The position numbers and the translations under genes are program-made. A stretch of DNA of 64,000 bases, from positions 1-64,000 of the forward strand of contig CAIPQN010000012.1 in NCBI GenBank assembly GCA_903867225.1, in the 5' to 3' direction. The first letter of the stretch is position 1. Each line of letters opens with the position of its first letter. Below the pieces are notes generated by a model. The model had not been told where the DNA came from. It was given only the letters and a program-made list of their open reading frames with translations, and made no database searches. Shown here one piece after another: positions 23,509-28,234 of the stretch. This DNA comes from an uncultured Pseudomonadota bacterium. GTDB lineage: Bacteria; Pseudomonadota; Gammaproteobacteria; Methylococcales; Methylomonadaceae.

Positions 23509-24501
23509 TTAAATCATGTCGTTGAAAATGATTTTCGCTAGTTGTTTTGCAAATTCGACAGGAACAGCATTGCCAACCATTTTATAACCATCGGTAATAT
23601 AACGATATTTGAAAACAAAATCATCTGGAAATGTTTGTATTTTAGCGCATTCACGAACCGTTAAACGTCGATACAAATTTTCTTGACCTCGTACAAAAAT
23701 ACGTTTGTCTTGTTCAATGAATTCCATTTTTGGAGCTTGAGGATGAATGGGTGCGTGTCGCCCGCCTGCTTGTATTGTAAAAGAAGGTTCGTCCCAACTA
23801 CGAACTCGGTTTCGTGACATATAAATACTTGAAAATCCCCCCGTCATATATTCATGATTTGGAAACGCTAAATTCGCATCACCATTCGTCATGTTTTTAT
23901 CTAATGCAGGTTTTGATGAAGGCAAATTAGAAATCACATCTTTTAATACCAATTTTGGTGTAATTTTTTCAGGAGATTGAAATGTTTTACCAAGATAATT
24001 TGCATAACCGACGATAATGACGCGTTTTCTATCTTGTGGCACACCAAAATCATTGGCATTTAACAAAAAATAAGAAACGTTATAATCAAGTGCGGTGAAA
24101 TCAGCGAGTATTTTTTGGAAGGCAATTTGATGTTTAGGCAACAAAATTCCCGCTACGTTTTCTGCAAGAAAAAATTTTGGTTTTTTACTTTTTATAAGTC
24201 GAATGTAATCAAAAAATAATTGCCCACGTTTGTCATCAATTCCACGTCCTGCACCCGCTTCACTCCAACTTTGACAAGGTGGCCCGCCGATAATGCCTAC
24301 GCAATCTGGAATTTCATTAGCCTTTATTTCAGTAATTGAACGTTTATCTAATGTGGTTTTTGGGTGATTATGTTCGTAAGTTTCCCAAATAGTTGAATCA
24401 AATTCATTTGCCCAAATCACATTAAATCCAGCTTGCTTAAAACCTAAATCTAAACCACCCGCGCCACTAAAAAAAGAAACAATGTTCATATTATCGTGCA
24501 T
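23509..24501 (-). CDS. DNA (cytosine-5) methyltransferase, M.NgoPII-like (predicted GGCC)
   Basis: 330 residues with the ordered m5C motifs: I (VSFFSGAGGLDLGFKQAGF), IV with catalytic Cys (IGGPPCQSWSEAGAGRGIDD), VI (FFLAENVAGIL), VIII (DFGVPQDRKRVIIVG), and X (YKMVGNAVPVEFAKQLA). The target-recognition region with FSSIYMSRNRVRSWDEPSFT closely resembles remembered M.NgoPII sequence, which methylates GGCC. A second Met (MNIVSFFSG, four codons in) matches the family start and would begin just after the endonuclease stop. The first start gives an 11-base overlap. It protects DNA from the linked endonuclease. The gene is visibly A+T-rich, suggesting acquisition by transfer. Confidence 0.92.
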   Translation of the reverse strand: MHDNMNIVSFFSGAGGLDLGFKQAGFNVIWANEFDSTIWETYEHNHPKTTLDKRSITEIKANEIPDCVGIIGGPPCQSWSEAGAGRGIDDKRGQLFFDYIRLIKSKKPKFFLAENVAGILLPKHQIAFQKILADFTALDYNVSYFLLNANDFGVPQDRKRVIIVGYANYLGKTFQSPEKITPKLVLKDVISNLPSSKPALDKNMTNGDANLAFPNHEYMTGGFSSIYMSRNRVRSWDEPSFTIQAGGRHAPIHPQAPKMEFIEQDKRIFVRGQENLYRRLTVRECAKIQTFPDDFVFKYRYITDGYKMVGNAVPVEFAKQLAKIIFNDMI

Positions 24502-25342
24502 AAGTCAGCAATTTAGCCTCTAGCAAATTAGCTGGATTATTTGGTGATTTGATTTTTATGTTAGTGATTGAAAAAAAATCACTTTGCAAATTTTCGAGCC
24601 GCTCTTTGTCTTCGTCAGGAAAACGCTCATATTTTTCACTCAATACAATCGCATGAACCGTAAAATCATGTTGTGCCTCAATAGTTGCAACATAATTAAA
24701 TACTTTGATCGGATTCTCTATGTGCCACATACCACGCACCCGCAAATCGGTAATGCCTAACGGATCAACCTTTTTAACTTTAGCCAATTCATTGGTTTCG
24801 ATAAATTCTACATCTGGAATCTCTTGGATACCTTGTGAAATTTTATCGGCGATACGTTGATAAATTCCCCGTTCTGCCGCATAACAATCACCATAAATCA
24901 GCCATAATGCTTTCAATTTATCGGTATTTTTAGGTGAAACGCCTATCGCGTAAATAATGTCTTTCTCTATCCAGTCGCTACTTTCACAATTTCGACACGC
25001 CTCAGTAATACGCGAATCATCACGATAAAGTTTATCTTTTGGGTAGGAACTGTTTAGAGCAATTACCGAACTTAAACCTTCGATTTTTTTAACTTCAATC
25101 GCATCGCCATTTCTAATAATGGCATCAGGCGGATTATTTTGATTACCCAAATAAGAAAAAAACTCTCCGTGAATGACATCGTTTTTTTCATTGATTGAAT
25201 GACAAAATACATCTTTCACATAATGCTCTAACGCATCCCCCATTTTATTTGCGCGATTAGAGCCTTTGTAGTGCGACACCAAATCGACTATTGGATTTTC
25301 AATAATGTTGATTAGGGCAATAAGTAAATTTGTTTTTTTCAT
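24491..25342 (-). CDS. Type II restriction endonuclease, NgoPII family (predicted GGCC)
   Basis: 283 residues. The N-terminus (LINIIENPIVDLVSHY, NRANKMGDALEHYVKDVF) matches the RE_NgoPII family as I recall it. A PD-(D/E)xK nuclease core is visible as NPPDAIIRNGDAIEVKKIEG near residues 92-110: Asp, then Glu-x-Lys. NgoPII cuts GGCC. The gene is directly upstream of, and overlaps or abuts, the methyltransferase on the same strand. No separate controller protein is present. Base composition is more A+T-rich than its flanks. The specificity is inferred from both halves agreeing, not measured. Confidence 0.85.
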   Translation of the reverse strand: MKKTNLLIALINIIENPIVDLVSHYKGSNRANKMGDALEHYVKDVFCHSINEKNDVIHGEFFSYLGNQNNPPDAIIRNGDAIEVKKIEGLSSVIALNSSYPKDKLYRDDSRITEACRNCESSDWIEKDIIYAIGVSPKNTDKLKALWLIYGDCYAAERGIYQRIADKISQGIQEIPDVEFIETNELAKVKKVDPLGITDLRVRGMWHIENPIKVFNYVATIEAQHDFTVHAIVLSEKYERFPDEDKERLENLQSDFFSITNIKIKSPNNPANLLEAKLLTYAR

Positions 25343-25421: not shown

Positions 25422-26066
25422 TTATTTCGTCAAATTCAACAACAACGCAATATGCGCCAATTCTGCGCCCGAATTTACATTTAACTTGGTGCGAATGTTC
25501 GTGCCGTAATTCGCGGCAGTTTTATAACTTATACACAATTTTTCAGAAATATCGTGAGCGGTTAAACCTTTTGCCAATAACAAAAACACATCAAATTCGC
25601 GTGGTGAAAAGTCATCAACAATCGTTTGATAATCCATTGAATCTGGCGAATTTTCAACGTCATCAATCAAATTCGGTTCAACGTAGATTTCACCGTTTGC
25701 AACTTTTTTAATCGCTGTGATTAACACGTCAGGATGCGCGTGTTTGCAAATGTAACCTTTTGCGCCCGCATTCATGGCGCGTTGCACATACACTTTTTCA
25801 TGATGTACGCTGAACACAATAACTTTTGCTTCTTCGTGTCGTAAAATCAAACGGCGCGTGGTTTCTAAACCACCGATTCCCGCCATTGATAAGTCCATGA
25901 CAATTACGTTAGGTTTTAAATCCGCATAAAGTTGTAACGCTTGTTCACCGCGTTCCGCTTCCGCAATGACCTCGATATTTTCTTCGGTAGCAAGCAATAA
26001 ACGAAAACCCGCCCGAACTATCGCGTGGTCATCGACGAGAATCACGGTTATTTTTTTTGAATTCAT
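25422..26066 (-). CDS. NarL/FixJ-family response regulator
   Basis: 214 residues. Receiver domain with acidic pair VDDH (about 11-14), phosphoacceptor Asp58 in VIVMDLSM, and Lys in GAKGYICK. A LuxR-type helix-turn-helix follows in FSPREFDVFLLLAKGLTAHD and beyond (about 148-207). Its start overlaps the kinase stop by 4 bases, so the two are a cognate pair. In methylotrophs a similar regulator is called MoxX; the neighbouring kinase makes that possible but target genes are unknown. Confidence 0.92.
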   Translation of the reverse strand: MNSKKITVILVDDHAIVRAGFRLLLATEENIEVIAEAERGEQALQLYADLKPNVIVMDLSMAGIGGLETTRRLILRHEEAKVIVFSVHHEKVYVQRAMNAGAKGYICKHAHPDVLITAIKKVANGEIYVEPNLIDDVENSPDSMDYQTIVDDFSPREFDVFLLLAKGLTAHDISEKLCISYKTAANYGTNIRTKLNVNSGAELAHIALLLNLTK

Positions 26067-27379
26067 AAAGGAATTTTGGCGCGAATTGTCATGCCTTTTT
26101 GAGGCTGTGTTTCAATTAAAAAATCACCGCCCAAACTGCATACACGCTCGCGCATACTCAATAGACCAAATCCATTTTTGATAGTTTGTGCGTCACAACC
26201 TTGTCCGTCATCGGTGATTTGCAGCAATAAAAAGTTATTTTCATCGAGCGTTAAATTTATAAAAGCCTGATTAGCGTTAGCATGTCGAACAATGTTTGTT
26301 AAGCCTTCTTGCACCATCCTAAAAATATGAATACTTATTTTTTCCGATAACATTTCACAGTCTTTATCACATTCAAATCCGATTTTTAAATGTGAATAAC
26401 GTTGTTGCCAATGTGAAATCAAATCTTCAAGAGCAGCTTTTAAACCCAATTCGGTCAAACACACGGGATGTAATTGCTGCATCATTGAACGCACGACGCA
26501 CATTAAATGATCGCAAATCTGAATAATAGAATCAGTGCTTTGTTTTATGAGTAAATTTTGTGACTTTTCAGCGCGTGAAATTGTGACCGTCATAACTTTA
26601 ATTGCGGTCAATGATTGTCCCAATTCATCGTGCAATTCTTGCGCGAGGTGTTGACGTTCTTGTTCTTGAATCGCTAAATTATGTTGTGTGAGTGCGAGAT
26701 TTTCTTGCTGTGCCGCATTTAGTTTTTCGAGTGTAAGATTAATTGCGCCTGCAATTTGATTCATTTCAACACTAGAAAAATAGGGCAAAGGTTGTTGAAA
26801 ATGACCTAATTCAACGCGCTCTAACCCTTGTACAATCACTAAAATTGCTTTTAAGACGCGATTAAAAACCAACTGAATCACAATAAAAATCGACACAATC
26901 AGCAAAAATAACAATCCAAAAAATGCCAAACTTTCTTGCCAAACTTCACGAATTTCATTTAACGGATTGGCTTCAATCGATACGATAAGTTGTTGTCCAT
27001 CATCAGTTATCAAAGCACGTTCTATTTTAATGGGTGAACTCGCCACTAAATTGACAAACCATTTAGGCGGATTAGAGTGGATTTTGGGAATGGCGGATTG
27101 TGAAACATTTAACACATTTCCAGACGGCTCTTTGAGCTGAATGCGTAAATGACGCGTTTCTTTTAACGCATTAAGTTGGGCGAGCCATTCTGTGCGGGCG
27201 TTGGTTTGTGTGAGATTAAAAGCGATAAGTTGAACGGCTAAATGAATCGATGAATTCATTTCATCTTGTACGGCGCGTTTAGCTTGCCAAAGTGTAATTG
27301 TTCCGCCAATGATGAAAATACAGCATGCTAAAAATAAAATACGGATATTGATTTGATAACGCAAAGTCGTTTTTTTCAT
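26063..27379 (-). CDS. Membrane sensor histidine kinase (HisKA_3), MoxY-like
   Basis: 438 residues. Membrane segment at 12-31, periplasmic sensor of about 115 residues, second membrane segment 151-172, HAMP-like linker, then HisKA_3 with phosphoacceptor His250 in HLAQELHDELGQSLTAIKV. The HATPase domain has the N box in VQEGLTNIVRHANA and the G box in DDGQGCDAQTIKNGFGL. The short periplasmic domain between two helices resembles LapD/MoxY N-terminal domains. It is the middle gene of an operon, after the XRE-DHp gene and before its response regulator. Signal unknown. Confidence 0.88.
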   Translation of the reverse strand: MKKTTLRYQINIRILFLACCIFIIGGTITLWQAKRAVQDEMNSSIHLAVQLIAFNLTQTNARTEWLAQLNALKETRHLRIQLKEPSGNVLNVSQSAIPKIHSNPPKWFVNLVASSPIKIERALITDDGQQLIVSIEANPLNEIREVWQESLAFFGLLFLLIVSIFIVIQLVFNRVLKAILVIVQGLERVELGHFQQPLPYFSSVEMNQIAGAINLTLEKLNAAQQENLALTQHNLAIQEQERQHLAQELHDELGQSLTAIKVMTVTISRAEKSQNLLIKQSTDSIIQICDHLMCVVRSMMQQLHPVCLTELGLKAALEDLISHWQQRYSHLKIGFECDKDCEMLSEKISIHIFRMVQEGLTNIVRHANANQAFINLTLDENNFLLLQITDDGQGCDAQTIKNGFGLLSMRERVCSLGGDFLIETQPQKGMTIRAKIPL

Positions 27380-27408: not shown

Positions 27409-28179
27409 TTAACGACTAATTAAAAACCTAATTTTTTCAATTAACTCCACGGCACGTTGTCCAGCCGCTGCAATTTCTTTTGTATTTCGTTCTAATTCTG
27501 ATTTTGACGCTTCATTTGTGATGTCATTAAAAATAAAATTATTTATTTCGTTGTAACCCAACATACACGCCAAAGTTTCGTTGAAATCATGAGTAATATC
27601 TTCTGTTAATTGCCCAATGTTTTCTAAATCACTCAGCTTTGCTTTTTCTTGTAATGTTTTGGCTGTTAATTTTGCATTTGCAAGAGCTAATTCACCGTCT
27701 TTTTGTTCTTTTTCAATTAATTGGAAAATCAATTCTGAGTTCGTTAAAATTAAATCTAACGACTGTTTTTCTTTTTCTGTGTTTTCAACGGACAGTTTTT
27801 GAATATCTTGCTTGAGTTTTTCATGGGCATTTTTATCGTTGATGACACTCCGCAAAATGCTAACAATGTCATCTTCGGATTGCTTTGTTTTTGATGGTGT
27901 TGCTTTACTTTCATCGGTTCCGATTGGCAATAAATCTGCTAACGCTGGCATGATTTCAGTCGGGTGTACTTTTAATACTTTGGATAAGCGTAAAACAGCA
28001 TCGATATTCAAAGGCACACGTCCTAACAAATACGCGTTAAACGCGGCTTGTGTTTTCCAATTACATAACTTCGATACTTTTTCTTGTGTTAAATCCAACT
28101 CTTTTTTCTTGGCATTCCAAATTAATTGTAATTGTTCAGCAGCCATCATTTGGGCATAGGATAAATTTAATTTTTTCAT
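27409..28179 (-). CDS. XRE regulator fused to a coiled coil and an isolated kinase DHp domain
   Basis: 256 residues. Residues 15-80 are an XRE/cI-type helix-turn-helix (KKKELDLTQEKVSKLC, then NIDAVLRLSKVLKVHPTEI). Residues 100-185 are a charged coiled coil. Residues 183-256 read as a HisKA dimerisation and phosphotransfer domain: LSDLENIGQLTEDITHDFN with His197 in the HDFN motif, and AAAGQRAVELIEKIRFLISR as the second helix. There is no ATPase domain after it; the protein stops. It is the first gene of the operon with a complete sensor kinase and regulator. It could be phosphorylated by another kinase, dimerise through the DHp bundle, or have lost phosphotransfer. I know of no characterised member. 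Confidence 0.75.
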   Translation of the reverse strand: MKKLNLSYAQMMAAEQLQLIWNAKKKELDLTQEKVSKLCNWKTQAAFNAYLLGRVPLNIDAVLRLSKVLKVHPTEIMPALADLLPIGTDESKATPSKTKQSEDDIVSILRSVINDKNAHEKLKQDIQKLSVENTEKEKQSLDLILTNSELIFQLIEKEQKDGELALANAKLTAKTLQEKAKLSDLENIGQLTEDITHDFNETLACMLGYNEINNFIFNDITNEASKSELERNTKEIAAAGQRAVELIEKIRFLISR

Positions 28180-28210: not shown

Positions 28211-28234
28211 ATTATAGTTACAAATTGTATGTAA
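28211..28234 (-). promoter_or_regulatory. Promoter -10 and candidate XRE operator
   Basis: Upstream of the XRE-DHp gene a TATAAT (minus strand) is directly preceded by an inverted repeat TTACA-N7-TGTAA, with a nested ACAAATTGT palindrome. The repeat occupies the promoter spacer, a place where a bound repressor would block transcription. Autoregulation by the XRE protein is inferred. The -35 element is weak. Confidence 0.4.

Follow-up and report, generated by a model that had tools for sequence, protein, structure and literature searches.

What does the phosphoacceptor domain of a histidine kinase do in a DNA-binding protein that has no ATPase? This question is raised by a gene located in the window (the whole stretch of DNA analysed here, 64,000 nucleotides of contig CAIPQN010000012.1), whose host is a methane-oxidising Methylococcales bacterium. 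The encoded protein consists of a lambda-CI-type HTH, a coiled coil and a HisKA-type DHp (dimerisation/phosphoacceptor) domain without ATPase, and this architecture is real. The initial annotation regarded it as a hybrid of one- and two-component signalling, able to accept phosphate at His197 or to dimerise through the DHp bundle, a view that is partly supported. Our best explanation, held with moderate confidence, is that of a DNA-binding dimer in which the retired DHp serves as an oligomerisation scaffold and which probably autoregulates its own operon. The features of the locus are collected in Table 1.

Table 1. Features of the locus, with positions in the window.
Feature	Position	Strand	Evidence and remarks
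HTH-DHp gene	27409-28179	minus	256 aa, ATG at 28179, stop at 27409
Lambda-CI-type HTH (XRE), residues 1-84	27928..28179	-	phmmer, Foldseek, dN/dS 0.034 versus ortholog
Disordered linker (about 88-101) and long helix (102 to about 184)	27628..27927	-	AF2; dN/dS 0.19, residues 85-184
HisKA-type DHp helical hairpin, residues 185-256, then no ATPase	27412..27627	-	Profile matches, AF2, dN/dS 0.068
His197 (HDFNE), former phosphoacceptor position	27589..27591	-	Sequence, numbering and flanks
Acidified His face: E193 (H-4), D194 (H-3), E201 (H+4)	27577..27603	-	Net charge -3
Membrane sensor kinase: LapD_MoxY_N, weak HAMP match, HisKA_3, HATPase_c	26063..27379	-	Pfam
NarL-type response regulator (REC and LuxR HTH)	25422..26066	-	Pfam
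TATAAT, candidate -10 element	28211..28216	-	By eye; upstream DNA partly conserved with L044; absent from promoter-scan hits

The N-terminal domain of lambda CI is matched by the HTH both in sequence (phmmer against the PDB; 3kz3, E 2e-4; 1lmb, E 4e-4) and in fold (Foldseek against 3kz3; TMt 0.92, rmsd 1.1), so that it belongs to the lambda-CI-type HTHs (XRE) on either ground. Lambda CI dimerises mainly by means of its C-terminal domain; in the window protein this place is occupied by the coiled coil and the DHp.

The C-terminal region belongs to the HisKA DHps by sequence homology, although not with every model. The NCBIfam kinase models match approximately residues 150-250 (E 2e-8 and 4e-7), whereas the Pfam HisKA match (E 0.009, 16.5 bits) stays below the cut-off of 26.9 bits. 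Most genuine HisKA-HATPase proteins of the genus have a DHp that is 40-59% identical to this domain, whose family profile finds 5idj, a histidine kinase of solved structure (E 1e-10). The AlphaFold2 monomer (pLDDT 91, under 50 for residues 88-101) contains a continuous helix (102-217) and a second helix (223-255) that form a DHp-type hairpin, and the model of the DHp alone reaches a pLDDT of 93. When this domain was submitted to Foldseek, sensor-kinase chains came on top, but at E 0.17 or worse, helical hairpins matching many folds. Since the VIA-align Z of about 10 is also common to unrelated hairpins, fold matching of the DHp was not taken as proof. The protein fails as a histidine kinase for want of HATPase_c: the frame ends after the DHp, there is neither a match nor an ATPase remnant, and the next gene follows 29 bp on. 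The DHp sequence and the HDFN H-box are like those of CckA/VirA-type HisKA sensor kinases (PRK13557, PRK13837, 5idj), but the window protein has no HATPase, carries Glu instead of Asn at H+4, and possesses an HTH in place of the sensor domain.

As had been annotated, the gene is the first of an operon, followed by the sensor kinase gene and that of the REC-LuxR regulator, and this order is kept in a second species. The sole ortholog (L044:2404-3171), found in the same-genus Methylococcales MAG Kiruna_bin-05821 (G011), encodes 255 aa that are 82% identical, shares the two downstream genes and the end point, and retains His197. By the Nei-Gojobori method, applied to this one genome pair only, dN/dS is 0.096 overall (dS about 0.60), 0.034 for the HTH and 0.068 for the DHp (dS 0.6-0.7 for both), and 0.19 for the linker and coiled coil, the linked kinase and NarL-type regulator giving 0.10 and 0.094, respectively. 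The low values at both ends of the protein point to purifying selection on the HTH and the DHp in this pair, disfavouring a chance or decaying ORF. The other searches returned parts of the protein. Genome contigs gave, besides the ortholog, a single partial match limited to the HTH. An HTH profile matched one other genome among 369 gammaproteobacterial genomes, where the open frame (194 aa) is too short for the fusion. Phage and plasmid records matched the HTH alone, and viral contigs gave weak matches only, all within the HTH or its linker. No precedent for an HTH-DHp protein was found in the open-access papers searched.

The linked kinase has a DHp of a different type, HisKA_3, in which BLASTP detects no similarity to the window DHp. 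Its relatives occur in 54 of the 61 genomes searched, and the NarL-type regulator adjoins the kinase at most inspected loci, but the HTH-DHp gene precedes such a kinase in two genomes only, those of the window and G011. For instance, it is absent from the corresponding locus of G014, where the kinase is 85% identical, and where HTH-kinase genes, intact or split, were inspected elsewhere in the genus, none lay beside a kinase-regulator pair. With such a distribution, the HTH-DHp gene appears to have been added in one lineage to a kinase-regulator pair that is itself widespread, and the three-protein circuit that had been suggested does not emerge as an established module.

The surroundings of His197 distinguish the window protein and its ortholog from the rest of the genus. 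H197 and the acidic H+1 residue (D198) are present in both proteins, as are E, D and E at H-4, H-3 and H+4 and T at H+5. The 41 other distinct DHps of the genus carry S/A at H-4 (39/41), G at H-3 (40/41), N at H+4 (41/41) and I at H+5 (39/41), with three exceptions in all at H-4, H-3 and H+4. The helix face around the His has a net charge of -3 in both orthologs and of 0 or +1 in the 41 homologs, while the α2 motif (ELxxNTxxIxxAGxRAxxLIxK) is retained. In HisKA proteins the H+1 acid is required for kinase activity and the Asn/Thr at H+4 for phosphatase activity, and the DHp of NtrB or EnvZ can work as a phosphatase by itself (PMC3510030). The Thr/Asn typical of HisKA DHps at H+4 is replaced by Glu in both orthologs, which counts against a phosphatase role too. 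Judged from these residues, this is a pattern of retained scaffold and altered active face, suggesting that the protein works as a plain DNA-binding dimer and not as a phosphate relay.

Relatives of the protein indicate where it may come from. A search in its own genome matched 17 other proteins with a related DHp; examined locus by locus, all 17 carry HATPase_c (16 by Pfam, and that of L042 by BLAST). The genus also contains a 533-aa protein (L045:6796-8397) with HTH, coiled coil, DHp and HATPase all intact, in the same domain order as the window protein and with about 70% identity to it in the HTH and about 53% in the DHp. It differs in having the canonical HDFNN, the HATPase_c domain and a phage-like operator in its promoter, and in the absence of an adjoining kinase-regulator pair. 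An intact HTH-kinase with a phage-like operator is an unusual architecture in itself, for which no precedent was found in the open-access papers searched. Other relatives are broken in diverse ways. At L047 an HTH-coiled coil ORF is followed by a separate DHp-HATPase ORF, and split ORFs also occur at L092 and L093. At L046:9930-10890, near a contig end, an HTH-coiled coil ORF is stopped within tandem coiled-coil repeats; a second in-frame stop lies in a later repeat unit. The interruption may reflect decay, a switch or an error of assembly. The protein at L013:1495-2706 consists of HTH, coiled coil and HATPase without DHp, and has a PT-repeat tail.

Outside this fusion set of the genus, the HTH is most closely related to short CI-like genes, of which several face a small HTH gene in a phage-like setting. 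Because an intact HTH-coiled coil-DHp-HATPase protein exists in the genus, the window protein is likely to derive from a phage-repressor HTH fused to a soluble kinase, with later loss of the ATPase. The DHp tree does not group the window pair with the HTH-kinases, its 76 columns being too few to resolve the origin. In this tree the window protein and its ortholog form a clade of their own (support 100/100) on a stem of 1.05, compared with a median end branch of 0.17, and the branches within the pair are short, which points to a burst of change followed by constraint. The window genome also contains a CI-like gene closely related to the window HTH (L028:4184-4639) that faces a small HTH gene and adjoins replication-like ORFs, a probable prophage.

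Operators of the phage CI type were sought with a matrix built from operator-like sites of short CI-like genes at phage-like loci, P values being obtained against shuffles. Matches were found in the promoters of two HTH-coiled coil genes, L045 (P 0.004) and L046 (P 0.006). The L045 operator, AATAGTGTTACTATT, lies 74 bp upstream of the start, and the two L046 sites are 29 bp apart, a spacing also seen at phage-like loci. The presence of these operators before both genes makes autoregulation plausible for the family. In the promoter of the window gene the matrix found no significant CI-type operator (P 0.34), nor did it in the L044 promoter (P 0.21), and the best dyads of the window promoter do not rise above shuffles. 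A 19-bp palindrome about 80 bp upstream of the gene, TTAGATACGGATTATCTAA, is at chance level (P about 0.44) and was rejected as an operator. The promoter scan, with 14 sites compared with 10.7 expected, was given no weight.

Taken as a mechanism, the favoured explanation starts from a soluble HTH-coiled coil-DHp-HATPase kinase, of the type still present in the genus, which would have lost its HATPase domain. The surface around His197 would then have turned acidic, so that a role in phosphotransfer is probably gone, and the DHp would have been retained to provide the dimerisation on which CI-type HTHs depend. The CI-type HTH would be held as a dimer through the coiled coil and the DHp four-helix bundle; dimerisation through this bundle is the part of the initial annotation most likely to hold. 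The regulator would most likely bind its own promoter and set the expression of the operon with the sensor kinase and the NarL-type regulator, autoregulation being the simplest reading of its first position there. However, three results stand against this explanation: the retention of His197 together with the H+1 acid on which the kinase activity of HisKA proteins depends, the promoter search in the window, and the position of the pair in the DHp tree. If the scaffold explanation is right, a kinase scaffold has apparently been reused as a repressor dimerisation domain in a genus where the parental fusion and several broken versions of it persist, providing a testable case of interconversion between one-component and two-component regulators.

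An unlikely alternative is that the DHp pairs with the DHp of a paralogous kinase, and so either brings that kinase to DNA or dampens it. The 17 paralogs of the window genome would offer partners and the α2 side of the DHp is conserved, but the aligned relatives, ortholog aside, are only 22-54% identical over the DHp region, related DHps as a rule pair selectively, and the window gene is unlinked to any paralog. A role of this kind has been proposed for the ChrS pseudokinase of Corynebacterium glutamicum, where a ChrS with a frameshifted CA domain promotes signalling via the paralogous kinase HrrS and does not need its own His (PMC9491836). Like the window protein, it has no working ATPase domain, but it is a sensor kinase obtained by laboratory evolution and has no DNA-binding domain. 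Native ChrS and HrrS heterodimerise, whereas with the truncated form the heterodimer signal was not significant (PMC9491836). We give a similarly small chance to the broader proposal that the HTH brings half of a DHp bundle to promoters, there to pair with a paralogous kinase or response regulator or to receive phosphate from it. Were it true, a single protein would unite the DNA binding of one-component systems with the phosphate flow of two-component systems.

Phosphate acceptance at His197, as initially proposed, is improbable. The phosphate would arrive from the NarL-type regulator, or from another receiver, by back-transfer in the style of Spo0B, and phosphorylation would alter DNA binding. 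Spo0B is a four-helix bundle of the DHp type and, like the window protein, has no kinase activity, but it retains a functional phosphotransfer His together with a degenerate C-terminal domain, and the HTH is absent. In favour of such a role, His197 and the H+1 Asp are conserved in both species, and the operon of each also encodes a kinase and a regulator. However, the ATPase is absent, the His is flanked by three acidic substitutions, the linked kinase belongs to the dissimilar HisKA_3 type, and the linkage of the genes is confined to two genomes. Finally, a truncated kinase on its way to a pseudogene, retained by chance in two MAGs, is very unlikely, since even in a genus so rich in broken relatives the two orthologs show strongly constrained HTH and DHp, no stops, and an equal end point and gene order.

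Two further observations concern neighbouring or related genes. In G009, the coiled coil-DHp protein at L094:1408-2274 ends after the DHp without an ATPase, and Asn replaces its phosphoacceptor His, which speaks for the scaffold explanation. In the window, a C5 cytosine methylase and an NgoPII-type restriction enzyme (23509-25342) lie between the genes of the NarL-type regulator and a TonB receptor. At L044, L069, L070 and L073 the TonB receptor comes directly after the regulator, so that the restriction-modification pair looks inserted in the window lineage.
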